A DNA stretch of 64,000 nt from Synechococcus sp. PCC 7336 (GTDB taxonomy: Bacteria > Cyanobacteriota > Cyanobacteriia > Thermostichales > PCC-7336): assembly GCF_000332275.1 (NCBI RefSeq), contig NZ_CM001776.1, positions 2,314,789-2,378,788 of the forward strand, given 5' to 3'. Below, in pieces: positions 43,330 through 56,630 of the stretch. The notes below the pieces were generated by a model. That model was given only the letters and a program-made list of their open reading frames with translations. It was not told the origin of the DNA and searched no databases. Within the stretch, counting starts at the first letter, position 1, and the number at the start of each line of letters is the position of its first letter. The translations under genes and the position numbers were made by a program.

Positions 43330-43361
43330 TTTACCCTCCGCTTAGCTGGAGAGTCTATCTT
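43330..43361 (+). promoter_or_regulatory. MerR-type promoter/operator of the Met-rich protein-copA operon
   Basis: -35 TTTACC, then a 20-bp spacer with the dyad CTCC-GCTTAGCT-GGAG, then -10 TATCTT at 43356-43361. The start codon of the first gene is 49 bp downstream. The elongated spacer with a centred dyad is the hallmark of MerR-family activators, and the design recurs at six other sites in this island. Confidence 0.8.
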
Positions 43362-43410
43362 GACCTTGGTACTCGATGGTTTATGCAGTGTAGTACTAGA
43401 GGGCTGAATC

Positions 43411-43875
43411 ATGAACGTAACTCGCCAAAACTTTGTCCCCATTTCTTTAATAGGGATATCTCTATTCGTATTGGCAGGGATGCCATTGCTAGCTCAAATA
43501 GAAGCAGAAAACCCGGCTGTTCCCAGTGAAACTGCCACCGAGACAGTCATGACTCCCGGACAGATGCGCCAACAGCAGCAACAAATGATGGGTCAGATGC
43601 AGGAAAGGATGGGTCGAATGCAGGAAAGGATGGGCCAGATGACCCCAGAGCAGATGGGTCAGCACCATCAGAGGATGATGGGCCAGATGGCACAGATGGC
43701 AGAACAGATGGATCGAATGATGTCACAGGCAGGGAATGGAATGATGGGCGGTCCAGATCGGCAAGCTGGGCCAATGATGATGGATGATTCTGGCCGAGGA
43801 CCTAGACAAGAAATGATGGGTAGCCCCAGCCAACTCTCAGAACCCGAGACTGGCGACCTGACGGTGGAAGAGTAA
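43411..43875 (+). CDS. Secreted methionine-rich protein, probable copper binder
   Basis: 154 aa with a signal peptide ([22 protein letters not shown]). The mature part is a low-complexity Met/Gln stretch with many MxxM, MGQM and MMG motifs (about residues 47-118: [20 protein letters not shown]...). Such thioether-rich periplasmic segments bind Cu(I) or Ag(I). It is first in an operon with copA 53 bp downstream, under a MerR-type promoter. It probably buffers or delivers copper in the periplasm. I see no named domain. Confidence 0.85.
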
Positions 43876-43928
43876 CCATCGCATTCATCGAGCGACATTC
43901 ATTCAACACTACCTGTGGGTCAGCAGTT

Positions 43929-46172
43929 ATGGAAACTCAACAGCTCCAGCTAAGAGGAATGAGCTGTGCATCCTGTGCCTCGACTATCGAGCAAGCCATC
44001 CAAAGTGTTCCGGGAATCATTGAGTGCAATGTTAACTTTGCAACAGAACGGGCTGCCGTGAAGTTCGACAATCGACAAACCAGTCTCAAGCAAATTCAGC
44101 AAGCAGTCGCAGATGCCGGATATGCAGCAGAACCCCTGCGGCAAGCTGGGGCCAGTGAAGACGATCCAGAGAAAGCAGCTCGCGAGGCAGAACAGAACGA
44201 TTTAAGGCGCAAAGTGGTTGTTGGAAGCGTGATGAGTGTACTACTGATTTTAGGAGACCTTCCCGATATGACAGGTTTGAACCTGCCTGGGATACCGATC
44301 TGGTTGGGTCATCCTTGGGTGCAGTTCGTATTAGCGACGCCAGTGATGGTCTGGTGCGGAAAAAACGTTTTTGTGGGGGCTTGGAAAGCCTTCAAGCTAC
44401 ATACTGCCGACATGAATACTCTGGTGGCCGTGGGCACCGGAGTAGCGTACCTCTATTCGATATTTGTCACGGTTTTTCCAGATGTCTTGAGCTCTCAAGG
44501 TCTGTCGGCGCAAGCTTATTACGAAATAGCTGCGGTCATCATGACATTGATTTTGCTAGGACGTTTTCTAGAAAACCGTGCCAAGGGTATGACCTCGGAA
44601 GCAATTCGGAAACTGATGGGTCTACAGGCAAAAACGGCTCGCGTTATCCGCGCAGGTCGAGAGCTCGATATCCCGCTAGAGGAGGTTGTGGTTGGAGATG
44701 CAATCTTAGTCCGTCCAGGTGAAAAAATTCCTGTGGATGGAACGGTCATCGAAGGGTCTTCTGCTGTAGACGAATCGATGGTGACGGGTGAGTCCGTACC
44801 CGTGATGAAGCGAGCTGACGACGACGTGATTGGCGCGACTATCAATAAAACAGGCAGTTTTAAGTTCCAGGCTGCGCGAGTGGGCAAGGACACCGTGTTA
44901 GCTCAGATAGTCGAGTTAGTCCAGCAAGCTCAGGGCTCAAAAGCCCCCATTCAACAGTTGGCCGATCGGGTAACCGGTTGGTTTGTCCCTGTGGTGATTG
45001 CGATCGCGATCGCCACCTTCGTCATCTGGTTCAACCTTATGGGGAATGTCACCCTGGCGATGCTGACCACTGTGGGCGTACTGATTATCGCTTGTCCTTG
45101 TGCATTAGGCTTGGCGACTCCCACATCCATCATGGTGGGGACGGGCAAGGGCGCAGAGAATGGCATCTTAATTAAGAGTGCCGACAGCTTGGAACTGGCC
45201 CATAAACTTCAGGCGATTGTGCTGGACAAAACGGGAACCCTGACGCAGGGTCAGCCCGCCGTCACTGATTTCCAGACGCTGAACGGGAATGATTTAAAAC
45301 TGCTGCGCTGGGTTGCTGCTGCAGAGCGGAATTCCGAACATCCCCTCGCGGAAGCAGTGGTTCAATTCGCTCGGGCTCGACAAGTGAGCCTGCCAGAAGC
45401 GCGGAACTTTAATGCCGTTGCTGGGAGTGGCGTTGAAGCCAACGTGGAAGGTCAGTGGGTGCAAGTCGGTACAGAACGCTGGTTTGGAGAGTTGGGGATC
45501 GATATCCAACCTTTGCAGAGGCGCAAACAACAGTGGGAGTCGGAGGGAAAGACGGCGGTTTTGGTAGCCGTTAACGGTCAAGTACAGGGGCTAATCGGGA
45601 TTGCCGATACCCTCAAATCATCTTCTGCTGCTGCGGTGAAGGCTTTACAACAGATGGGATTGCAAGTGGTGATGCTGACAGGCGACAACAAACGCACTGC
45701 TGAGGCGATCGCTCAACAGGTGGGCATTACGCGAGTGTTTGCTGAAGTCCGTCCGGGCCAGAAGGCTGCCAAAGTGAAATCAATTCAGGAAGAAGGCAAG
45801 ATTGTAGCGATGGTGGGAGACGGCATTAACGATGCCCCTGCGCTGGCCCAAGCTGATGTGGGCATTGCCATTGGTACGGGGACAGATGTGGCGATCGCCG
45901 CAAGCGATGTCACGCTCATCTCTGGAGATCTACAGGGGATTGTGACTGCTATTCAGCTCAGCCACGCCACGATGAGAAACATTAAAGAAAATCTCTTCTT
46001 TGCCTTTATTTATAACGTCGCTGGCATTCCGATTGCTGCCGGGGTTCTCTTTCCCCTCTTGGGCTGGCTGCTCAATCCTGTGATTGCTGGAGCTGCAATG
46101 GCATTTAGTTCAGTGTCTGTGCTGACGAATGCCTTGCGCTTGCGTAATTTCCAACCCAAAACCACCTTATAG
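43929..46172 (+). CDS. copA: Copper-translocating P1B-type ATPase
   Basis: 747 aa; exports Cu(I) from the cytosol using ATP. N-terminal heavy-metal domain with GMSCASCAS (M-x-C-x2-C), then the membrane region with the CPC metal site (ACPCALG), phosphorylation motif DKTGTLT, TGES actuator loop, HP motif (SEHPLAEA), and [32 protein letters not shown] hinge. The C-terminal helices carry YN and [16 protein letters not shown], the pattern of the P1B-1 (Cu+) subgroup. It is the second gene of the operon; the cupredoxin-like gene follows 10 bp downstream. Confidence 0.97.
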
Positions 46173-46182
46173 CCAGGGAGTC

Positions 46183-46773
46183 ATGAAGCCAATGTTCGCG
46201 AAGAATCAGCGATATAATCTTTTACTTAGTCTGGGACTAATCGTTGGGGTGGCTACCGGTACTGCCGTTGCACAAATATCCGAGCCTACTTCACCACCCA
46301 CTGAGGAATCTCGCCGTGCCGATCGATCTACATCAAGTAAAATTGCTGTCACTCTAGGAGGTTTAGCATTAATTGGTGCAGAGTTATGGTGGTTCCAGTT
46401 CAGTAAGACTAAAGCTCGACAAGCCGAAGTGAAGCAGGGGGTACAAGAAATTGAGATCGCCGTTGATGGCGGCTACTCGCCCAATCAGATTGTCGTCATA
46501 GCCTGTCAACCCGTTCGGCTTAGTTTTTTTCGTAAAGACCCCAGCAGTTGCCTCGAAAAGGTCATCCTGCCCGATTTTCACCGCGCAGTAGATTTGCATC
46601 TCCATCAAACAACACCCGTGGAATTTACCCCAGAGCAGCCTGGAGAGTACTCTTTCCACTGCGGCATGAATATGTTTCGGGGGACTGTGGTCGTTCGCGA
46701 ACAGACGGCAGACGATCGCACTGCGCCAAAAGTCTCTTCAAACGGCCAAGTTCGAGCTGATTCAGAAAAATGA
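46183..46773 (+). CDS. Membrane-anchored cupredoxin-like protein
   Basis: 196 aa from ATG 46183, 10 bp after copA. A signal or first helix (LLLSLGLIVGVATGTAVAQ), a second helix around residues 65-80 (IAVTLGGLALIGAELWWFQF), then a cupredoxin fold (QEIEIAVDGGYSPNQIVVIACQPVRLSF...) ending in FHCGMNMFRGTVVV. Potential copper ligands are Cys, His and Met in HCGMNM, plus upstream His residues (DFHRAVDLHLHQ). It is the third gene of the copper operon and is likely to accept or carry periplasmic copper. Confidence 0.88.
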   Translation: MKPMFAKNQRYNLLLSLGLIVGVATGTAVAQISEPTSPPTEESRRADRSTSSKIAVTLGGLALIGAELWWFQFSKTKARQAEVKQGVQEIEIAVDGGYSPNQIVVIACQPVRLSFFRKDPSSCLEKVILPDFHRAVDLHLHQTTPVEFTPEQPGEYSFHCGMNMFRGTVVVREQTADDRTAPKVSSNGQVRADSEK

Positions 46774-46896
46774 ATGCAACTCTAGATCGTGATGGTTTCG
46801 GCATTTTCCAGCATAGGACTTCTCATTGCTTTCCAGAACTGTCGATATGAGAAGAGGTCATCATAGCTGAGATGATAGCTCTTTTGGGCTAGAATT

Positions 46897-47814
46897 CTAG
46901 CGATGCCCAAGCCCATGAGACATAGTTTGATTTTGCAATATATCCAGATCAAAGGGTACAAACAAAATTTGGCCATCAATTTTAACCTGGGCAAACAGCT
47001 TTAGATAACCGGCAGTTTTCGGACGCATAAAGAACTTGAGCTCTGGTCCGCTATGCTCATCCAAGCTGCTGGGCTCTTCACCTAGGGGATGAATGTGAGC
47101 AATGCCAGTATAGTTTCCCTCATACCCAACAAGATGAGCAAATGCACCTAAGATAGGTTCAAGTGTAGTGACATCCCGACCTTCCTCATCCCTAACGCGG
47201 ATTGACCCTGTAGCACCATCACTCGTAGTTAAGCTATCGACATCGAATGACAAGTCAAAGGTATAGCCAGCGACTGTTGCTGAAGTATTTACCGTTTCAC
47301 GAACGCATGGTGCTGCACACGATGCACTGCCTTCTAAGTCAGCGATCGCATATTGCTGGTTGCCATCAACCGGGGTGATGTCTATCCAAATCCGGTAATC
47401 ATGAGTTGTGTTTGGTGTAAAGCTAAACTGATACTCGCCGGGTTTACCTGTTGGAATGGGGTGTTCGTGATGGTAATCGCGTAGAGATGGATCGACGATC
47501 AAAAGGTGAATTTTTTCAGTATGAACTTCGCGCAAATCATCTAACGTCATCGGCGAATTATCATCAACATGCGAGAGTGTGAGGGTGACTGTGACAGTTT
47601 CTCCAGGTACAAGGGGGCCATCAGTCGTTGTTTCTAGTTTAACTGCCAAGGGTGTTTCAGGGACTTGTTGTTGCGAGTTGTGATGTGAGGAATGTCCGGC
47701 ATCGGCGAGAGAGGATAGCGACGTCGGAACTAATAAAGCAAGAGCTACTGTGGAGGTCATCAGTAAATGGCAGATAGGCATGAAGAGAATTCTTTTCACG
47801 ATTTCCTCACTCAT
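46897..47814 (-). CDS. Secreted protein of the metal regulon, His-rich N-terminus
   Basis: 305 aa from ATG 47814. The signal peptide (LLMTSTVALALLVPTSLSSLADA) is followed by GHSSHHNSQQQ, then beta-rich domains (VPGETVTVTLTLSHVDD..., EKIHLLIVDPSLRDYHHEHP, YQFSFTPNTTHDYRIWIDI). His pairs and HEHP, HIHPLG and Cys-Ala-Ala-Pro-Cys may bind metal. I do not recognise the family with certainty; it resembles periplasmic YtkA/FixH-like beta-sandwich proteins. The upstream frame to 47892 is not needed. A MerR-type promoter lies about 300 bp upstream on the same strand. Confidence 0.82.
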   Translation of the reverse strand: MSEEIVKRILFMPICHLLMTSTVALALLVPTSLSSLADAGHSSHHNSQQQVPETPLAVKLETTTDGPLVPGETVTVTLTLSHVDDNSPMTLDDLREVHTEKIHLLIVDPSLRDYHHEHPIPTGKPGEYQFSFTPNTTHDYRIWIDITPVDGNQQYAIADLEGSASCAAPCVRETVNTSATVAGYTFDLSFDVDSLTTSDGATGSIRVRDEEGRDVTTLEPILGAFAHLVGYEGNYTGIAHIHPLGEEPSSLDEHSGPELKFFMRPKTAGYLKLFAQVKIDGQILFVPFDLDILQNQTMSHGLGHR

Positions 47815-48113
47815 TTGAGTTGAACTGTTGGGAAGACTACCTTCACAGCTATCCCCTGATTGACTGACAAAACTCTCGTCGTCTTGATACAAAAGGGGTC
47901 TGGTGGAGCGAGCCTTTAGATGAGATAACTGGCGGATGCTGCAAATGCAAAATTACGACAGATATTCATCATTAGCTCTCGTTGAGTGACTATAGCGATC
48001 CGATCTGAGTCGTAAAACTAATGGCATCTTAGGACGCCAGAACCCTTTCCCAGTAAGGATCTCAGGTTTTACAGTTTTTACAAGTAGTTTAGGACTGCTA
48101 TAGTTACGCATGC
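47815..48113. other. Long 5' region of the secreted-protein gene
   Basis: About 300 bp between the MerR-type promoter at 48114-48145 and the start codon. No gene is seen. It would form a long 5' untranslated leader if the promoter is used. Confidence 0.4.
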
Positions 48114-48145
48114 ACTTTAATCTCTCCCGCTAAGGACAGAGTCAA
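48114..48145 (-). promoter_or_regulatory. MerR-type promoter/operator (variant) for the secreted-protein gene
   Basis: On the minus strand: -35 TTGACT, 20-bp spacer with CTGT-CCTTAGCG-GGAG, then -10 TAAAGT. The left half-site differs from CTCC in two bases. The core otherwise resembles the copA-operon operator (CTTAGC...GGAGAG). Confidence 0.6.
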
Positions 48146-48213
48146 GTCCTACGACCGGGAATAGCTGCAGTCCTCGCGATCGCTTGCGCGGCACGACTAA
48201 TCGAGAGTCCACA

Positions 48214-48489
48214 TTATCCTTGTCCCACACCAGCTGCTACGAGAGCCGCCCGAGTCATGGGTTGCTGGTCGCGGCAACATTCAGCCAACTTACCATTCAC
48301 AACCACAGCAGGAATCCGATAAATTCCATACTGGCTGGCTTTCTGGCTGGCTTCCTCCCCCTGGCTCTTATCTGCTAGAGAGTAGATTCGGACGTCGCAG
48401 CTAGGGCAGGCTATTTCGTTAACTAGACGAACAGTCTCATCGCAGAGCGGACAACCGGCTGTAAACACTTCTACAAGTCTTTTGGTCAC
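48214..48489 (-). CDS. Thioredoxin-fold protein with CPLC motif
   Basis: 91 aa. The GTG at 48489 is chosen because AAGGAAG precedes it and because the MerR-type promoter overlaps any start further upstream. The protein opens VTKRLVEVFTAGCPLCDETV, a glutaredoxin/thioredoxin-like strand followed by the redox motif C-P-L-C. A second pair CPSC follows 11 residues later, and IPAVVVNGKLAECC contains the cis-Pro. It may reduce or bind metal-stressed thiols. It is divergent from the membrane-protein gene at 48683. Confidence 0.85.
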   Translation of the reverse strand: MTKRLVEVFTAGCPLCDETVRLVNEIACPSCDVRIYSLADKSQGEEASQKASQYGIYRIPAVVVNGKLAECCRDQQPMTRAALVAAGVGQG

Positions 48490-48520
48490 AGTGCGCGCTT
48501 CCTTCAGTAGCTCCAGCTCA

Positions 48521-48552
48521 ACCCTAACCCCTCCAGTTGACTGGATAGTCAA
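48521..48552 (-). promoter_or_regulatory. MerR-type promoter/operator of the thioredoxin-like gene
   Basis: On the minus strand: -35 TTGACT, 20-bp spacer with ATCC-AGTCAACT-GGAG, then -10 TAGGGT. The GTG start is 32 bp beyond the -10 box. Confidence 0.65.
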
Positions 48553-48593
48553 GAGGTAACTGTTAACTTTTTAATCGCAGACTGCGATAGGAC

Positions 48594-48625
48594 TTGATTC
48601 TCCATCTCGATGGAGAGTTTAAAAT
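48594..48625 (+). promoter_or_regulatory. MerR-type promoter/operator of the membrane-protein gene
   Basis: -35 TTGATT, 20-bp spacer holding the near-perfect dyad CTCCATC-TC-GATGGAG, -10 TAAAAT. This is the most symmetrical of the seven sites. Confidence 0.8.
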
Positions 48626-48682
48626 TTATGCGTCATACCAGAAATTGCTCTAGTATGACGGACTCCACTCAGTTAAACTGAA

Positions 48683-49189
48683 ATGCAGAATAGTCCCATG
48701 AAATCATTTGCTACTCGCTGGTTCGAGCGTGTGTTATTGCTACCGGAAGTCAATCTGTTTGTCTTTGCTTTCCTAGTAAATTTTGTTTACGAAGTTTGGC
48801 AATCTCCTTTCTTTGAGTTTTACGATCGATCGTCTCTGGCAGCTAAGATTGCTGCCATCAATCACTGCACAGTCGGCGATGGCATTATTATCGTCGTCTG
48901 TTACTGGATTGCCAGTTTACTGCTGCGATCGCGCTTCTGGATTTTACAGCCGGGTTGGCGACAGGTGGTTTTGTTCGCCAGCCTGGGATTTGCCTATACT
49001 TTTGTTTCTGAAATTTACCGAGTGCGGATTGCCCATCTTTACGGCCTTTCAGGGTTAGTTGTGCCGGGAATAGGAATCAGTTGGCTGCCCCTTCTGCAGT
49101 GGATTGTTCTTCCACCCTTGATTCTCTACTTCGTGCGTTGGCAGTTACTCGGACATGCAAAAATATCTCAACCTCAGCAAGATCGTTAA
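48683..49189 (+). CDS. Integral membrane protein of the metal regulon, unknown function
   Basis: 168 aa with four or more hydrophobic segments (LFVFAFLVNFVYEVWQ, GIIIVVCYWIASLLL, VVLFASLGFAYTFVSEI, LPLLQWIVLPPLILYFV). Motifs NFVYEVWQSPFF and HCTVGDGII look conserved (an N-x3-E-x2-Q helix and a His-Cys-T-x-GD turn). I know of no assigned function. Its promoter places it under the same control as copA and the RND pump, so a role in metal handling is a reasonable inference. Confidence 0.82.
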   Translation: MQNSPMKSFATRWFERVLLLPEVNLFVFAFLVNFVYEVWQSPFFEFYDRSSLAAKIAAINHCTVGDGIIIVVCYWIASLLLRSRFWILQPGWRQVVLFASLGFAYTFVSEIYRVRIAHLYGLSGLVVPGIGISWLPLLQWIVLPPLILYFVRWQLLGHAKISQPQQDR

Positions 49190-49810
49190 TTAGTCAGGGC
49201 AGCCTATAGTGATTTCTCGTGTGGCTGGCGGTAAAGGCTGACAGTTGTCTAAAGGGTTGCCCGAGAGATCTAATTCCTTTAAATTCCTCAAATTAATCAG
49301 TGGACTGACATCGACAACACGGTTATTACTGAGGTGTAGCTCGACCAGATTATCTAAGCTCGATAGCGGACTGAGATCCTCGATCTGGTTGTCTTCGAGA
49401 TGGAGATAGATGAGCTCATTTAGATTGGCAAGAGGACTAATGTCGGCAATCTGGTTTCCTTCAAGGTGTAGGTCACTGAGCTCAGTTAAATGGGCAAGCG
49501 GTGCGAGATCGCGGACCTGATTGTCAGTCACCAGAAGCTCTTGTAGCTTCGAAAGCTTTTGGATACCCTCAAGAGAAGCAATACTGCCTGATTGAGGTCT
49601 AGTCCGCGAAATATCTAACTGAGTGATTTGCTCAATCGAATTGGCTCCTGGTGACTGTTCAGTTTGAAGCCTGAGAAACATTCTGATTCCTGCCTCCAGT
49701 TGCGGATCTGGGAAGATCCAATCGCGCTCACTTGCTGCCGCACGAGCAATTGGGATGCTTACTATAGTAAAAAACGCGATCGACTGGATGGCGATATTTT
49801 TTGTATTCAT
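49190..49810 (-). CDS. Secreted leucine-rich-repeat protein
   Basis: 206 aa. Signal peptide (IQSIAFFTIVSIPIARAAA), an N-terminal cap ending near GANSIEQITQLDIS, then about five internalin-type 22-residue repeats (LSDLHLEGNQIADISPLANL, LIYLHLEDNQIEDLSPLSSL and so on). It ends in a short PLPPATREITIGCPD cap. It is probably exported and protein-binding. The stop codon abuts the stop of the convergent membrane-protein gene. I saw no MerR-type promoter for it. Confidence 0.88.
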   Translation of the reverse strand: MNTKNIAIQSIAFFTIVSIPIARAAASERDWIFPDPQLEAGIRMFLRLQTEQSPGANSIEQITQLDISRTRPQSGSIASLEGIQKLSKLQELLVTDNQVRDLAPLAHLTELSDLHLEGNQIADISPLANLNELIYLHLEDNQIEDLSPLSSLDNLVELHLSNNRVVDVSPLINLRNLKELDLSGNPLDNCQPLPPATREITIGCPD

Positions 49811-49909
49811 AATTCACCACGATAGGGCTTTTACCATAGATTGCCATAAGAATAGATGCTTTTCTGCCTGCTCTAATAGCGCATTCATGCAAAGATTGAT
49901 TACATTTGC

Positions 49910-49941
49910 TTTAGTCTCCAGTTGAGGGGAGATTTTACGAT
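49910..49941 (+). promoter_or_regulatory. MerR-type promoter/operator, duplicated unit 1
   Basis: -35 TTTAGT, 20-bp spacer with CTCC-AGTTGAGG-GGAG, -10 TACGAT. The surrounding ~70 bp is a near-copy of 50974-51045. Confidence 0.8.
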
Positions 49942-49973
49942 TGAGGTGTAAGAGGCCGTCTTGCGATCCAAGT

Positions 49974-50381
49974 ATGGGTCCCGGCCAGATGATGTCGCAA
50001 CGGCACAGGGGCGGAGGCTGGATGAGAGGCGATCGCTGGGGGTACGGCCAGCAGCATGGCAGAATGTATAACCTCAACACCGTTGAAACGGTGCGAGGCA
50101 CGATTGTCGGCACAGACTCTTTCACACCCTCAGCAGGCATGTCTCCAGGGATGCAAATCTCGGTGAATACTGGCACGGAGACTCTACCCATTCACCTCGG
50201 TCCGCGCTGGTTCTTAGATTCGCAAAATTTAAACCTGGCCTCGGGTGATGAGATAGAAGTTACCGGCTCTCGGGTGGACTTTGCAGGCCGCTCGACCATT
50301 GTTGCGTCCGAACTGCGGGAAGGGGATACCGCGATCGCCCTGAGAGACTCGGATGGGATACCCAGCTTACGCCCCCGCTAA
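49974..50381 (+). CDS. OB-fold-like small protein, N- and C-termini apparently altered
   Basis: 135 aa from ATG 49974. An earlier TTG in frame is ruled out because it lies on the -10 box. The N-terminus is Met/Gly/Arg/His-rich (MGPGQMMSQRHRGGGWMRGD) and lacks the signal peptide one would expect for a copper-island protein. The rest (NTVETVRGTIVGTDSFTP, then ISVNTGTETLPIHLGPRWFL and SGDEIEVTGSRVDF) looks like a beta-barrel/OB fold. The last residues (SLRPR) are encoded by an R1 repeat, so the original C-terminus has been replaced. Confidence 0.7.
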   Translation: MGPGQMMSQRHRGGGWMRGDRWGYGQQHGRMYNLNTVETVRGTIVGTDSFTPSAGMSPGMQISVNTGTETLPIHLGPRWFLDSQNLNLASGDEIEVTGSRVDFAGRSTIVASELREGDTAIALRDSDGIPSLRPR

Positions 50382-50512
50382 GCATGGCATCAACCATAGC
50401 TTTGGGGCCAGAGGAACAAAATCTAGCCAAGATTTGCGGCGGTTTCTCCTCTCTCCCTCGGGAGAGGAACTGGGGGTAAGGGCAATGCAGAGCTATCGAA
50501 CTCAGGTTGTAC
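50364..50512. repeat. R1 repeat, copy C
   Basis: Same orientation as copy A: CCGCTAAGCATGGCATCAACC, GGGGCCAGAGGAAC, AAAATCTAGCCAAGATTTGCG, CTCCCTCGGGAGAGG, ending ATCGAACTCAGGT. It lies exactly between the OB-fold gene and the first merR. Confidence 0.85.
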
Positions 50513-50514
50513 CG

Positions 50515-50913
50515 ATGGAAAAGCAGATCGTGTCTGGTCAAACAACAGAGCTTCTAAAAATAGGAAAACTCAGAGAGGAAAGCGGTATTCCGGTCAAAAC
50601 CATTCGCTATTACGAAGAACTGGGATTGATTGAGGCAGAGAGGCGTACCGAGGGAGGCTTTCGCCTCTTTTCCAGAGCAATGCTCCCTCGTTTGAGGTTT
50701 ATCAAACAAGCCCAGGGCCTAGGCTTTAGCCTACGAGAAATTGGTGCAATTATCAAAATCTACAACCGCAGTGAAGCTCCTCGTGGCGAAGTGAAGCAGA
50801 ATATTCAAGCCAAACTTTTAGAAATCGAAGATAAAATTCGGAAGTTAGAGGAATTGAAAGCTCAACTGATAGCTCTGGTCTCGGATACCCATCCTGCTTC
50901 CGTACTCAATTGA
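50515..50913 (+). CDS. MerR-family regulator 1 (cysteine-free paralogue)
   Basis: 132 aa from ATG 50515; a GTG at 50530 matches the start of the second copy (VSGQTTELLK versus MSCQITELLK). The winged-helix DNA-binding domain is intact (IGKLREESGIPVKTIRYYEELGLI...), as is the dimer coiled coil (LLEIEDKIRKLEELKAQL). There are no cysteines at all. The position of the sensing Cys in metal MerR proteins is Arg90 (APRGEVK), and the C-terminal metal loop is missing (ends DTHPASVLN). It may be metal-blind and act as a constitutive or competing regulator. Separated from its promoter by the OB gene and an R1 repeat. Confidence 0.93.
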   Translation: MEKQIVSGQTTELLKIGKLREESGIPVKTIRYYEELGLIEAERRTEGGFRLFSRAMLPRLRFIKQAQGLGFSLREIGAIIKIYNRSEAPRGEVKQNIQAKLLEIEDKIRKLEELKAQLIALVSDTHPASVLN

Positions 50914-51003
50914 ATATATGATTTCTCTCTAGATTGCCTTAATAACGGGTAATTTTTAGCTTGTCTCGATCTAGACACCAATGCAAAGATTTGTTACTTT
51001 TGC

Positions 51004-51035
51004 TTTAGCCTCCAGTCAAGGGGAGATTTTACGCT
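51004..51035 (+). promoter_or_regulatory. MerR-type promoter/operator, duplicated unit 2
   Basis: -35 TTTAGC, 20-bp spacer with CTCC-AGTCAAGG-GGAG, -10 TACGCT. It is closely similar to 49910-49941, including the flanks (TGCAAAGATT upstream, GTGTAAG downstream). Confidence 0.8.
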
Positions 51036-51075
51036 CGACGTGTAAGCATCAATTTCTAGAATGGAGGTTCTGTCT

Positions 51076-51147
51076 ATGATGGATCGAGCTGTTTCTCTCG
51101 TTATTCCTCCTGCCGCCACTATTGCTAGAGTAGCTATTGCTGCTTGA
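51076..51147 (+). CDS. Short ORF (23 aa) between the second operator and merR2
   Basis: ATG with GGAGG 8 nt upstream. The peptide starts MMDRAVSLVIPPAATI and continues hydrophobic to a stop, like a signal peptide without a mature protein. It occupies the place of the OB-fold gene in duplicated unit 1. It could be a leader peptide or the stump of a deleted secreted protein. Confidence 0.45.
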   Translation: MMDRAVSLVIPPAATIARVAIAA

Positions 51148-51243
51148 AACTTTGTTCGAGCAGTTGCCTTTCAACTCGACGAAACCCTGTCGGGTTGGCA
51201 CCCACCATCGATTTCGTTCTACGATCGCCTGAGAATTTATACT

Positions 51244-51672
51244 ATGTCTTGCCAAATAACAGAGCTTCTGAAAATAGGAGAGCTCAAGGAAGAAATTGGT
51301 ATTTCAGTTAAAACCATTCGCTATTATGAAGAACTGGGATTGATTGAGGCAGAGAAGCGTACTGAGGGAGGTTTTCGACTTTTTTCCAGAGCGATGCTCC
51401 CTCGCTTGAGATTTATCATAAGAGCCAAGGAATTGGGCTTTAGCCTGCGAGAAATTGGTTCAATTCTCCAAATTCACGATCGCGGCGATATCCCCTGTGG
51501 TGAAGTGAAGAAAAACATTCAAGCGAGAGTTTTAGAAATTGAGGATAACATTCGAAAACTAGAGGAACTGAAAACTCAATTGAGAGACTTGATCTCGGAT
51601 GCTAGTCCTGCCTCTGTTCGGCAGGAGGGAATCATTTGCCCAATTATCCAACACGATAATGATGGAGCTTGA
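51244..51672 (+). CDS. MerR-family metal-responsive regulator 2
   Basis: 142 aa. The DNA-binding domain (LLKIGELKEEIGISVKTIRYYEELGLIEAEKRTEGGFRLF) is nearly identical to that of MerR1. It keeps three cysteines: Cys3, Cys85 (IPCGEVKK) at the start of the dimer helix, and Cys132 (IICPIIQHD) in the C-terminal tail. Cys85 corresponds to the Hg/Zn-type helix Cys (Ser in CueR), and Cys132 to the second Cys of the C-terminal loop. The first loop Cys of CueR is absent. It is therefore not a standard CueR, and the metal is uncertain. It is the likely activator of all seven promoters listed here. Confidence 0.93.
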   Translation: MSCQITELLKIGELKEEIGISVKTIRYYEELGLIEAEKRTEGGFRLFSRAMLPRLRFIIRAKELGFSLREIGSILQIHDRGDIPCGEVKKNIQARVLEIEDNIRKLEELKTQLRDLISDASPASVRQEGIICPIIQHDNDGA

Positions 51673-51869
51673 CTCTCGATTGTGCATCAAAAAAGCGTGG
51701 GTTCCCAACAACTAAGGGCAGCCATGTTTCGATCTAAGACCGCCAGCAGCCTCAAGATCTCCCCAAGAGCGCGCGTGTTGCAAAAAGAATAACAGTATTC
51801 TCGATCGCTCCGAGATCGCCGCCTCTGACTGGCATTCATCTTAAGCGAAGGCAAAAAAATCTTCAGGGC

Positions 51870-51901
51870 TTGACTCTCCACTTGAGGGGAGATACTACAT
51901 T
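51870..51901 (+). promoter_or_regulatory. MerR-type promoter/operator of the RND efflux operon
   Basis: -35 TTGACT, 20-bp spacer with CTCC-ACTTGAGG-GGAG, -10 TACATT. The adaptor gene starts 45 bp downstream. Confidence 0.8.
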
Positions 51902-51946: not shown

Positions 51947-53500
51947 ATGCCGAACAAACATATTCTGTCCGACATTGCCCCGCTCCTGCTCTTGTTATCC
52001 ACCGCTAGTCCCGCCTTTGCCCACGGCGGACATGGGGATGAATTTCAAACGGGCGGAGCGATTTCAGCCGCCGATGCAGTGCAGGTGGATGCCGATACGG
52101 CCGAGCGTCTGGGCATCGAGATAACAGCTGTAACGTTGCAGCAACTGACTTTCGGAGTTGAGGCCACCGGACAGTTAGAGCTCCTACCCAACGGCCAAGC
52201 AGAAGTCACCAGTCCCGTGGAAGGGACACTCACTCAAGTGTTGGTGGCTCCCGGCGAAACCGTGGAAGCGGGGCAGCCGATCGCCATTCTCTTCAGCCCA
52301 GAGTTAGCGGAACTGTACGTCAGCGCGCAGGAGCAAAGCATAGCAGCGGCAACCGAAATGCAGCTAGCGCAGGCAGAGTTGCAATTGGCGCAGCAAAATT
52401 ACGGGCAACAGCGACAGATTGCTGCGGCTGAGCGATCGCGGGCCGAGATCGATGTCAAAACGGCTCGGGAGCGGTACGAGAATGATAAAGCTCTGCTGTC
52501 TCGGGGAGTCATTGCTCGGCAATTGGTGGCAGAGTCAGAAATTCAATTGGCAGCGGCGGAGAGTGCGCTGACTCAAGCCAGCCATTCGCGATCGCTGCTC
52601 GAAGCCTCGGCAGAGTTGGAGCGCGCCCAAGCTAATCTGCAGGCCGCTCAATCCCGTTTGCAGTTGAGTGGAACCGTCTACGAAGCTCGCCTCGAGCAAT
52701 TGGGGGGCAACGTCACTCCAGATGGCATTCTCACCCTCGCGGCCCCCATTGCGGGAGAGGTGGTCGAGCTCGCCGTGACCTCTGGCGAAGCACTGTCAGA
52801 TGCCGGGCAGTTGCTGATGGCGATTGCGAACAGCGATCGCCTCTTTGCCACCGCCAATATCCAAGAGAAAGATTTAGCCCGCACCTTTATCAACCAGTCA
52901 GTTCGGGTGGAGGTGGCCAGTTTGCCGGGGCAGATTTTCCCAGGCCGGGTGGCCAGTGTGGGAGCGGTGGTGGATGGAGCGACTCGCGTCGTGCCGGTAC
53001 GAGCCGAAATTGATAATGCCGACGGCTCGCTCAAAGCCGGAATGTTTGCCGAACTAGAAATTTTGACCGAACAAACTCCCGCCCCCGTGATGGTGGTGCC
53101 CCAATCTGCAGTATTGGAGGTGGACGATCGGACGCTTGTGTTCATTGAGAATGGCAGTGTTTTCGAACCCCTGGATGTGACGGTGGGGCGGACGGCTGGC
53201 GATTGGGTGGAGATCGAGAGCGGACTCTTTGAGGGCGATCGCGTTGTCAGTCAGCGGGCCAGTCAGCTCTATGCCCAGTCCTTGCGGGGGAGCAGTTCTG
53301 GTGCGGACGACGGGCAGGTTGGAGCAACGGAAACTTCTGGCGCTTCCATGCCTTGGTGGGGGCTGGGCTTGGCTGGCGGGGCGATCGCAGCCAGCACCTT
53401 CTGGGCGGGAACGGCCTGGGCGGGGCGGCGCGAACGCGACAAAACCTCAGCCACAAGTGCTCAAACCGACAAGCCCCTTGAAGTCGCGAGAAAACTGTAA
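51947..53500 (+). CDS. CusB/CzcB-like RND periplasmic adaptor
   Basis: 517 aa. Signal peptide (IAPLLLLLSTASPAFA) followed by HGGHGDE, a short His motif that may bind metal. Lipoyl halves (GQAEVTSPVEGTLTQVLVAPGETVEAGQPIAIL and APIAGEVVELAVTSGEAL) flank a long coiled-coil hairpin (about 130-245), then beta-barrel and membrane-proximal domains. Unusually, the C-terminus adds a hydrophobic helix (WWGLGLAGGAIAASTFWAGTAWAG) and a charged tail, which could anchor it in the inner membrane. The RND pump gene starts 4 bp after its stop. Confidence 0.92.
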   Translation: MPNKHILSDIAPLLLLLSTASPAFAHGGHGDEFQTGGAISAADAVQVDADTAERLGIEITAVTLQQLTFGVEATGQLELLPNGQAEVTSPVEGTLTQVLVAPGETVEAGQPIAILFSPELAELYVSAQEQSIAAATEMQLAQAELQLAQQNYGQQRQIAAAERSRAEIDVKTARERYENDKALLSRGVIARQLVAESEIQLAAAESALTQASHSRSLLEASAELERAQANLQAAQSRLQLSGTVYEARLEQLGGNVTPDGILTLAAPIAGEVVELAVTSGEALSDAGQLLMAIANSDRLFATANIQEKDLARTFINQSVRVEVASLPGQIFPGRVASVGAVVDGATRVVPVRAEIDNADGSLKAGMFAELEILTEQTPAPVMVVPQSAVLEVDDRTLVFIENGSVFEPLDVTVGRTAGDWVEIESGLFEGDRVVSQRASQLYAQSLRGSSSGADDGQVGATETSGASMPWWGLGLAGGAIAASTFWAGTAWAGRRERDKTSATSAQTDKPLEVARKL

Positions 53501-53504
53501 AGTC

Positions 53505-56500
53505 ATGCTCAATGCCATTTTGCAATGGTCCATCGTGCAGCGTTGGCTGGTGGTGCTGGGGGCGATCGCCGCGACCGTTTTGGGGGTTTACAACCTCACC
53601 CAAATGCCCCTGGATGTCTTCCCCAACTTTGCGCCGCCACAGGTGGAAGTGCAAACCGAAGCCCCCGGATTGGCCCCCGAAGAGGTGGAGTCGTTAATTA
53701 CGCTACCGATTGAAAGTGCCGTTAACGGCACGCCGGGGGTGCAAACGGTGCGCTCCTCCTCCGCTGTGGGCATTTCGGTGGTGAAGGCCATTTTCCAGTG
53801 GGATACCGATGTGTTTCGGGCCAGACAACTGGTGGCGGAACGACTGCAGCAGGTGCGAGAGCAATTGCCAGAGGGGGCAGAATCGCCGCAGATTTCCCCC
53901 ATCTCCTCCCCCATCGGCACGGTGCTGATGTATGCACTCACTGCTGAAACTACGCCGCTGATGGACGTGCGTCGGTTGGTGGATCGGGATATTAGCAATC
54001 GCCTGCTGTCGGTGCCGGGGGTTTCTCAGGTGATTGCTTACGGCGGAGACGTGCGGCAGTATCAAGTGCTGGTGAACCCCGAGCGTTTGGCTGCCTTCGA
54101 CGTGTCGCTGCAGGAGGTGACGGAGGCTGCTGCTGCCGCCAATGTGAATGCGGCGGGCGGATTTCTGATTACCCCCGATGTGGAAACGATTGTGCGGGGG
54201 GTGGGCCGGATTGAATCGCTAGAGCAGTTGGGGCAATCGGTGGTGACCGCTCGGGACGGACGACCGGTGCTGCTGTCGGATGTCGCGGACGTGCGCATTG
54301 GGGCGGCTTTGAAGCGGGGAGACGGGAGCGCCAATGGCAAGCCTGCCATTGTGGTGGTGGTCAACAAGCAGCCCGCCTTCGATACTCCGACCGTGACCCG
54401 CGCGATCGATCGCGCCATGGCGGAGATTGCAGCCAGTTTGCCCGCCGATGTCGAGGTAACGGAAACATTTCGGCAGGAGAACTTTATCGCTGCGGCCATT
54501 CAGAATGTGCGCGGCTCGTTGCGGGATGGCATCATCATTGTTTCGATCGTCCTGCTCTTATTTCTGATGAACTGGCGGACTGCTGTCATTACCTTGTGTG
54601 CCATCCCTCTGTCGCTGCTGGTGGGGCTGATCGTCCTGAATGCCTTTGGTCTGGGCATTAACACCATGACGCTGGGGGGATTGGCGGTGGCGATCGGGTC
54701 GGTGGTGGATGACGCGATCGTGGATATGGAAAATGCCTATCGCGGCCTGCGCAACAATCAGCTAGAGGGCAACCCAGTCCCCCCCTTGCAGGTGGTCTAC
54801 GACACGTCAGTTGAGGTGCGCAGCAGCGTGATCTTTTCGACCGTCATTATTGCTGTCGTGTTTGCCCCCATCTTTAGCTTGACTGGGGTAGAAGGGCGCA
54901 TCTTCGCGCCGATGGGAATTGCCTATTTGGTCTCTATTTTCGCGTCCACGTTGGTGGCGATGACCTTATCTCCCGCACTCTGTGCCTTCCTCTTGACTCA
55001 TCGCCCCCTACCCAGCGACGAAACTTGGGTGACGGCACTGTCGCAGCGATGCTATCGTCCGATGCTGGATTTTGCCTTGCGCCGTTCGCGGATGGTGTTG
55101 CTGACGGCGGCCACTGCTCTGCTGCTGTCGTTACTGCTGTTCTCTGGATTGGGGCGGGTGTTTTTGCCCGAGTTTCAGGAACCTTCCCTCGTGAATGCCA
55201 TGCTGCTGTATCCGGGGTCGTCGCTGGAAAGTACCAATCAGGCGGGGTTGGCGATGCAGGCGGCTCTCAAAGACGATCCCCGCTTCAGCTCCTTGCAGTT
55301 ACGGGCGGGGCGCGCGGCGGGAGATGCAGATGCGGGCGGGGTGAATTTGGGGCATTTGGATGTGGAGTTGAGTGCCGAGGGGCTGAGGGATCGAGAGGGG
55401 GCGATCGCCGCCATTCGCGCAGAGTTCGCCCGCATCCCCGGCATCGCCCCCAATATCGGCGGATTTATCACCCACCGCATGGACGAGGTGCTCTCGGGGG
55501 TGAGAAGTGCGATCGCCATCAAGATTTTCGGTCCCGATTTGGACCAACTGCGCCGGATTGGGCGGGATGTGGAAACGGCCATCCAAGGCGTAGAGGGCTT
55601 GGTGGACCTGCAACTGGAACCGCAGGTACCGATTCGGCAGGTGCAAATTCAGTTCGACCGCGCGGCGGCGGCTCGCTACGGTCTGACGGTGGGCCAAATC
55701 GCCGAGGTGGTGGAAACGGCCTTGAACGGTCGGGTGGTGTCGCAGGTTCTGGACGAGCAGCAATTGGTGGATCTCGTGGTGTGGCTGCAGGAAGAGGCTC
55801 GCAGTAATTTAGAGACCATTCGCAATTTGTTGGTGGACACCCCCAGCGGCCAGAAAATTCCACTGGCGCAGGTGGCCCGCGTCGGATTTGGCACCGGTCC
55901 CAATACGATCGCTCGGGAGAATGTGTCTCGCTTGATTGTGGTGTCTGCCAATGTCGCCGGTCGAGATTTGGGCTCGGTGGTGGACGATATTCAAGCCCGC
56001 GTGCAGGAACGGGTGAATTTCGACTCGGGCTATTTCATCCAATACGGCGGCCAGTTCGAATCGGAGCAGCGGGCTCGCCACAACCTACTCGTCTTCGGTG
56101 GCTTGGCGATCGCCACCATTGCCGTACTGATGTACTTTGCCGTTCACTCCGTTGCGGGAATGCTGGCGATTTTAGTCAATCTGCCGCTGGCCTTGGTGGG
56201 AGGGGTGGTTTCCATTGCGCTGGGCGGCGGCGTGCTGTCGGTGGCCTCGATGGTGGGCTTCATTACTCTGTTTGGTGTGGCCACTCGCAATGGCTTGCTG
56301 CTGGTGGATAACTACAACAGCAAATTCGCTCGGGGGATACCGCTGCATCAGGCGATCGCCTCGGGATCGATGGAGCGGTTAGTGGCGATTTTAATGACAG
56401 CCCTGACTTCTGCCTTGGGGATGTTGCCGCTGGTGTTCGGTCGCGGTGCGGGGCAGGAGATTTTGCAGCCGCTGGCGGTGGTGGTGTTGGGAGGACTGTT

Positions 56501-56630
56501 CACTTCGACAGCTCTAACGCTGGTGGTGCTGCCCGCCCTGTATGCCCAATTCGGCAGATTCTTGATCTCCGAGCGCTCGACTGCTGCACCTAAACCCAAA
56601 ATTTTGGCAGAGTTTGAAGCCAGTCTCTGA
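53505..56630 (+). CDS. CusA/CzcA-family heavy-metal RND efflux pump
   Basis: 1041 aa, starting at ATG 53505; the longer open frame upstream is only the adaptor gene in another phase. Classic HME-RND layout: an N-terminal helix, periplasmic loop (PLDVFPNFAPPQVEVQTEAPG), helices 2-7 with the proton-relay acids in AIGSVVDDAIVDMENAYR, a second periplasmic loop (FLPEFQEPSLVNAMLLYPGSSL) and helices 8-12. It exports metal ions or periplasmic Cu(I)/Ag(I) with the CusB-like adaptor and the TolC protein encoded 0.9 kb downstream. Metal specificity cannot be read from the sequence by eye. Confidence 0.95.
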   Translation: MLNAILQWSIVQRWLVVLGAIAATVLGVYNLTQMPLDVFPNFAPPQVEVQTEAPGLAPEEVESLITLPIESAVNGTPGVQTVRSSSAVGISVVKAIFQWDTDVFRARQLVAERLQQVREQLPEGAESPQISPISSPIGTVLMYALTAETTPLMDVRRLVDRDISNRLLSVPGVSQVIAYGGDVRQYQVLVNPERLAAFDVSLQEVTEAAAAANVNAAGGFLITPDVETIVRGVGRIESLEQLGQSVVTARDGRPVLLSDVADVRIGAALKRGDGSANGKPAIVVVVNKQPAFDTPTVTRAIDRAMAEIAASLPADVEVTETFRQENFIAAAIQNVRGSLRDGIIIVSIVLLLFLMNWRTAVITLCAIPLSLLVGLIVLNAFGLGINTMTLGGLAVAIGSVVDDAIVDMENAYRGLRNNQLEGNPVPPLQVVYDTSVEVRSSVIFSTVIIAVVFAPIFSLTGVEGRIFAPMGIAYLVSIFASTLVAMTLSPALCAFLLTHRPLPSDETWVTALSQRCYRPMLDFALRRSRMVLLTAATALLLSLLLFSGLGRVFLPEFQEPSLVNAMLLYPGSSLESTNQAGLAMQAALKDDPRFSSLQLRAGRAAGDADAGGVNLGHLDVELSAEGLRDREGAIAAIRAEFARIPGIAPNIGGFITHRMDEVLSGVRSAIAIKIFGPDLDQLRRIGRDVETAIQGVEGLVDLQLEPQVPIRQVQIQFDRAAAARYGLTVGQIAEVVETALNGRVVSQVLDEQQLVDLVVWLQEEARSNLETIRNLLVDTPSGQKIPLAQVARVGFGTGPNTIARENVSRLIVVSANVAGRDLGSVVDDIQARVQERVNFDSGYFIQYGGQFESEQRARHNLLVFGGLAIATIAVLMYFAVHSVAGMLAILVNLPLALVGGVVSIALGGGVLSVASMVGFITLFGVATRNGLLLVDNYNSKFARGIPLHQAIASGSMERLVAILMTALTSALGMLPLVFGRGAGQEILQPLAVVVLGGLFTSTALTLVVLPALYAQFGRFLISERSTAAPKPKILAEFEASL

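Follow-up and report, generated by a model that had tools for sequence, protein, structure and literature searches.

MerR itself holds its metal at a site that spans the protomers, with C82' of one protomer and loop cysteines of the other (PMC5027573). The substitutions C112S in CueR and C115S in ZntR leave these proteins permanently apo, as constitutive repressors, and shut-off is thought to run via displacement of the holo-protein by the apo-protein (PMC4507017). For MerD, association with MerR at the operator has been reported, and its role is given as that of an activator or a repressor depending on the study (PMC5895735). CarA and CarH of Myxococcus xanthus are adjacent MerR-family paralogues that act on one operator, one of them ligand-dependent and the other not (PMC8156234). 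CvkR represses CAST genes and its effector is unknown, and HiNmlR acts via cysteines of its wHTH (PMC9938897). Slr0701 is an Hg-responsive MerR in Synechocystis (PMC6741143). A ligand-blind twin (CarA), a co-regulator (MerD) and sensor-less MerRs (CvkR, HiNmlR) are thus known already.

Here we describe MerR1 and MerR2, two MerR-family proteins encoded in tandem in Synechococcus sp. PCC 7336. The window, i.e. the whole stretch of 64,000 nt that was analysed, lies within a genome that consists of a single contig of 5.07 Mb. CueR C112S and ZntR C115S resemble MerR1 in the loss of a sensor cysteine, both mutants being locked as repressors with DNA binding kept, but they are engineered single substitutions, whereas MerR1 is natural, tail-less and located beside an intact sister. 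As a parallel they are also inexact in kind: the Cys-to-Arg change and tail loss of MerR1 differ from the Cys-to-Ser mutants tested. MerD is, like MerR1, a MerR-like DNA-binding protein without a metal site that is clustered with a metal-sensing MerR; MerR1, however, arose recently as a sister of the local sensor, and the efflux island in which it lies is of the copper type and has no mer genes. The assignment of MerR1 as a MerD was rejected on scores of 43.6 bits for TIGR02054 (cut-off 103.65) and 29.3 for NF033783 (cut-off 170). CarA/CarH share with MerR1/MerR2 the arrangement of adjacent paralogues, one of them ligand-blind, but differ in the B12 ligand, the large B12 domain, the B12-binding motif kept by CarA and the blocking of RNA polymerase by the pair. 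MerR1 ends past the dimer helix and has no Pfam match to a C-terminal B12-binding domain. HiNmlR and CvkR have, like MerR1, the MerR fold without a metal-binding C-terminus, but they represent separate subfamilies; Cys54 and Cys71 of HiNmlR are absent from MerR1, and CvkR dimerizes otherwise. A HiNmlR-like identity was discarded as well, given zero cysteines and 44.6 bits for the NmlR model (cut-off 175). The family of MerR2 is probably Slr0701-type (MerR/ZntR-like two-Cys proteins of cyanobacteria). MerR1 differs from this type by lacking both cysteines, and the predicted targets in this island are genes for efflux and copper handling. We found no description of a Cys-less paralogue of a metal-sensing MerR in the literature searched, which took in a minority of subscription journals. 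Nor did that literature yield a case in which a metal sensor stands in tandem with a sister devoid of cysteines, the two sharing predicted operators.

The tandem merR locus and its proteins

The genome contains three close MerR-family copies, namely MerR1, MerR2 and a third paralogue at 3227098 (L165) with both sensor cysteines present. The merR1 and merR2 genes share 81% nucleotide identity over 300 nt and the proteins 75% identity, and the two were recovered as sisters with a tree support of 99 (100/99 without the sensor columns), which bears out the sequence-only reading that they are close paralogues. The near-copy promoters claimed there also hold up, as 49887-49952 matches 50981-51046 at 86% identity over 66 nt. 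Together with the homologous upstream regions (Table 1), these comparisons support the origin of the pair by tandem duplication. Similarity between MerR1 and MerR2 stops at about 50905, and the upstream homology of copy 2 starts 25 bp further on. On the simplest reading, the breakpoint probably lies inside the merR 3′ end, in this short interval, and removed the tail of MerR1 at birth. A search of the sequence that follows merR1 detected no trace of the Cys tail (score 20, inside the range of shuffles), indicating that the tail is absent rather than frameshifted.

Copy 1 is organized differently from what the first reading assumed. A duplicated promoter-merR unit describes copy 2, whereas it applies to copy 1 only loosely, since P1 does not directly precede merR1 but lies about 0.6 kb upstream, with an ORF and a palindrome in between. 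Because this truncated ORF and the palindrome part P1 from merR1, the transcription of merR1 is uncertain. A consensus scan revealed no separate constitutive promoter ahead of merR1, the yield of the scan being at chance level. The intervening OB-fold-like ORF shows 59% identity to a 220-aa paralogue in the genome that has a signal-peptide-like N-terminus, compared with which the window copy looks 5′-truncated; that paralogue (L166, 1284-1946, minus strand) carries its own CTCCAGTTGACTGGAG MerR-type dyad. The palindrome CTCTCCCTCGGGAGAGG belongs to a dispersed family with 29 forward and 30 reverse genome matches versus 0 for the control. The OB-fold region in copy 1 and the leader in copy 2 showed no homology above chance. 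After P2 and before MerR2, copy 2 contains a 23-codon ORF (51076-51147; MMDRAVSLVIPPAATIARVAIAA) with a good ribosome-binding site (GGAGG, 51063-51067), possibly a leader peptide or a membrane microprotein.

Table 1. Features of the locus (positions in the window) and sensor-altered homologues at other loci (L numbers).
Feature	Position	Strand	Remarks
Putative MerR-type operator	43330-43357	+	precedes genes for Met-rich secreted protein, CopA/CPC-type copper ATPase and cupredoxin
Putative MerR-type operator	48525-48552	-	precedes thioredoxin-like gene; divergent pair with 48594-48621
Putative MerR-type operator	48594-48621	+	precedes gene for 168-aa membrane protein
Copy 1 upstream region	49837-49953	+	homologous to 50930-51047
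P1, MerR-type promoter	49910-49941	+	-35 TTTAGT, 20-bp spacer with dyad CTCCAGTTGAGGGGAG, -10 TACGAT
P1 dyad	49916-49931
OB-fold-like Met/His-rich ORF	49941-50381	+	146 codons, no signal peptide; 5′-truncated relative to 220-aa paralogue
Palindrome CTCTCCCTCGGGAGAGG	50451-50467		dispersed genomic repeat family; between OB-fold ORF and merR1
MerR1, MerR-family regulator without any cysteine	50515-50913	+	C85R, no tail; start probably ATG 50515 or GTG 50530
Inferred tandem-duplication junction	50906-50929		MerR1/MerR2 similarity stops, copy 2 upstream homology starts
Copy 2 upstream region	50930-51047	+	homologous to 49837-49953
P2, MerR-type promoter	51004-51035	+	-35 TTTAGC, 20-bp spacer with dyad CTCCAGTCAAGGGGAG, -10 TACGCT
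MerR2, sister MerR-family metal sensor	51244-51672	+	C85 and tail C132
P3, MerR-type promoter of RND efflux operon	51870-51901	+	-35 TTGACT, 20-bp spacer, dyad CTCCACTTGAGGGGAG, -10 TACATT
RND efflux adaptor (CzcB/CusB-like)	51947-53500	+	under P3
CusA/CzcA family heavy-metal RND pump	53229-56630	+	true start downstream of ORF 5′ end
Homologue L061	5992-6369		Hydrococcus MAG; Arg at C85, no tail
Homologue L161	1495-1866		Thr at C85, no tail
Homologue L233	around 3998		Ser at C85, no tail
Homologue L120	5980-6396		Nostoc linckia; Ser at C85, tail altered
Homologue L192	around 4016		Arg at C85, tail retained

The merR1 frame is open from 50353. As the ORF translations confirm, MerR1 is free of cysteine, with Arg at position 85 and a truncated tail, whereas MerR2 contains C3, C85 and C132. 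The in-frame codon for residue 85 is CGT in MerR1 and TGT in MerR2, a difference of one T-to-C transition, and MerR1 stops before the tail GIICPIIQ that is present in MerR2. The earlier placement of Cys85 and Cys132 of MerR2 at sensing positions was correct, as both occupy conserved columns; with C85 at the start of the dimer helix and C132 in the C-terminal loop, MerR2 has the two cysteines of the MerR/ZntR/CadR type, and MerR1 has neither. The tail of MerR2 can be aligned to the CPII tail of MerR from Bacillus (4UA1), and a counterpart of the third Cys of MerR (C117) is absent in MerR2, as across the family at large. No meaning for metal sensing could be attached to the loss of Cys3, because this residue is no conserved ligand; it is private to MerR2, and Val stands at that position in the third paralogue of the genome.

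Both proteins display the MerR fold, i.e. a wHTH DNA-binding domain and a dimerization helix, with 55.2 (MerR1) and 58.8 bits (MerR2) for PF13411 (cut-off 21.6) and 63.1 and 63.9 bits for PF09278 (cut-off 25.4). For MerR1, the AlphaFold model shows a confident wHTH and a dimer helix of 31 residues, and the end is disordered. Its best structural matches are DNA-bound CueR and CadR, and MtaN, a MerR-family N-terminal fragment without a sensor, is also among the matches. MerR1 gained no domain and is shorter than MerR2. The Pfam matches, the model and the short core branch described below support the proposal that MerR1 retains its DNA-binding and dimer parts.

Predicted MerR-type promoters of the island

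MerR promoters are recognized by a 19–20 bp spacer that contains a dyad, a 20-bp spacer being known for them (PMC10028694), and P1, P2 and P3 each have a 20-bp spacer with such a predicted operator. The dyad CTCCANTYRAGGGGAG occurs with zero mismatch at three sites in the genome, ahead of the OB-fold ORF/MerR1, MerR2 and the RND operon. A looser promoter-shaped pattern matched 7 genome sites, 6 of them in the island, and a control pattern gave 1 match. The 6 sites fall within 8.6 kb (43330-51901) and form what looks like a compact MerR regulon, with the CopA-type ATPase operon, the thioredoxin-like gene, the membrane protein, the OB-fold ORF/MerR1, MerR2 and the RND efflux operon as its units. 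As the -35 elements of P1 and P2 are weak (TTTAGT and TTTAGC), expression of the two merR units may be low. Elsewhere, TTGACTCTCCAGTTNACTGGAGAGTTTAGNAT is found about 60–100 bp 5′ of many family members' own genes, in a scan that required TTGA and is uninformative on -35 variation. The target genes suggest Cu/Ag as the metal, and C85 suggests Hg/divalent sensing. The 168-aa membrane protein (48683-49189), which has a MerR-type promoter and no Pfam family, has a homologue beside merR in Nostoc linckia (L120, 6497-6973).

Sensor loss among homologues and constraint on MerR1

The homologue set comprised 211 distinct ORFs pooled from several genome searches, covering relatives from the same order as the host and beyond. 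Cys was present at the C85 column in 193 of the 211 ORFs. With MerR1, MerR2 and cut rows left out, C85 was kept in 191/205 homologues, and Cys aligned at C132 in 202/205, an approximate count owing to the gappy tail alignment. Since C85 is found in most homologues and the tail Cys in nearly all, the loss in MerR1 is derived. Ser was found in 10 of the C85 exceptions, mostly alphaproteobacterial CueR-like proteins. MerR1, together with MerR2, split at 98/98 from the group containing the other cyanobacterial C85 exceptions, which indicates that the sensor was lost at least twice. A single clade of blind MerRs found no support, as MerR1 stands apart and the others were not strongly grouped without the sensor columns.

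Whether the Cys loss is maintained in related genomes, as the sequence-only reading proposed to check, could be followed at the level of the order and beyond. Comparable sensor-less MerR copies in other cyanobacteria look sporadic; such a copy, L161, is present in 1/28 genomes of its genus. Damaged homologues were seen as well: one stops one codon before the tail Cys (L174, around 475; EDTI then stop), one is broken by two internal stops (L246, around 3949), and a broken homologue is recorded for the genome G098.

The pairwise comparison of MerR1 and MerR2 gave dN 0.13, dS 0.73 and Ka/Ks 0.18. A neutral simulation run over half of their synonymous divergence predicted about 62 amino-acid changes, and about 94% of the runs acquired a stop; the real pair shows about 31 residue differences across both lineages and zero stops. 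Outside the sensor, the branch length is 0.12 for MerR1 vs 0.20 for MerR2. Among the private changes of MerR1, 6/11 fall in residues 75-85 of the hinge/sensor segment (hypergeometric P = 6.5e-5, for a segment chosen after seeing the data), including D79N, G81S and C85R. Position 81 was equated, in an alignment by eye, with the hinge Gly79 of Tn501 MerR, which touches Cys126' of the other monomer (PMC5027573). As read from these substitutions, the pattern in MerR1 is that of a relaxed sensor with DNA-binding and dimer parts still under constraint. The low ratio, the intact frame and the short core branch argue against a long-dead pseudogene, so that the decay envisaged by the first reading appears unlikely over the long term; recent relaxation remains compatible with the pairwise ratio.

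MerR1 as a possible brake on metal-responsive promoters

Our leading reading, which we consider an even call, is that MerR1 is a metal-blind twin of MerR2, locked in the apo state, which acts as a dominant-negative co-regulator and brakes the MerR-type promoters of the island. MerR1 homodimers would sit on the island operators in the repressing shape at any metal level. In a MerR1-MerR2 heterodimer, one site would lack the tail Cys and the other would carry Arg in place of C85, leaving neither complete. Because MerR1 is without both halves of the trans-dimer site, its heterodimer with MerR2 would be blind too. Losing just one Cys contribution would leave the heterodimer one usable site; it is this two-hit logic, with both contributions gone, that would favour a dominant-negative brake. 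By ousting metal-bound MerR2, MerR1 would raise the induction threshold and make shut-off faster. Read-through from P1, which belongs to the MerR type as well, could render MerR1 metal-induced, which would close a negative-feedback loop. Of the three functions suggested for MerR1 from the sequence, the metal-blind competitor is thus favoured, the heterodimer partner would work by the same mechanism, and constitutive activation is less likely.

It is also possible, though we think it unlikely, that MerR1 is a leftover duplicate, unexpressed or newly unconstrained and without a regulatory role, whose tail was lost at the breakpoint and whose C85R drifted. The truncated ORF and dispersed repeat that part P1 from merR1 agree with this, as do the sporadic look of sensor-less copies elsewhere (L161) and the broken homologue in G098. 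Such a duplicate is, however, difficult to reconcile with a dN/dS of 0.18 and no stops where neutral drift would have brought so many changes, with a core branch not longer than that of MerR2, and with changes that cluster in the sensor rather than spread.

MtaN is a constitutive activator, and the presence of this sensor-less fragment among the structural matches could mean that tail loss and Arg85 lock MerR1 in a DNA-distorting form, giving metal-independent basal efflux and MerR2. MerD, another Cys-poor co-regulator, has been described as activator or repressor depending on the study (PMC5895735). We regard this reading as improbable, since Cys mutants of the metal branch are locked as apo-repressors (PMC4507017) and MerR1 lost the tail and hinge contacts that transmit the metal signal. 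Least credible to us, and quite improbable, is a new input, by which the remaining MerR1 would answer another signal (redox, a small molecule or a protein partner). CvkR and HiNmlR do show that a MerR protein can lack a recognizable C-terminal sensor (PMC9938897), but MerR1 has no added domain, is shorter than MerR2, contains no Cys that an NmlR-like mechanism could use and is modelled as disordered past the dimer helix.

Beyond this locus, cyanobacteria might repeatedly convert duplicated MerR sensors to antagonists that are blind to metal because both halves of the trans-dimer site have been removed, a generalization that we find rather doubtful; we are just as hesitant about its second part, that such dominant-negative twins set the threshold and the shut-off time of metal-efflux promoters. 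If the brake on the island promoters is real, MerR1/MerR2 would be a natural counterpart of the laboratory apo-locked CueR and ZntR mutants and would make the shut-off of metal-responsive promoters by apo-protein displacing holo-protein testable. It would also mean that a dedicated apo-protein for promoter shut-off can arise by evolution, and that a duplication breakpoint plus one transition suffice to create a dominant-negative regulator.
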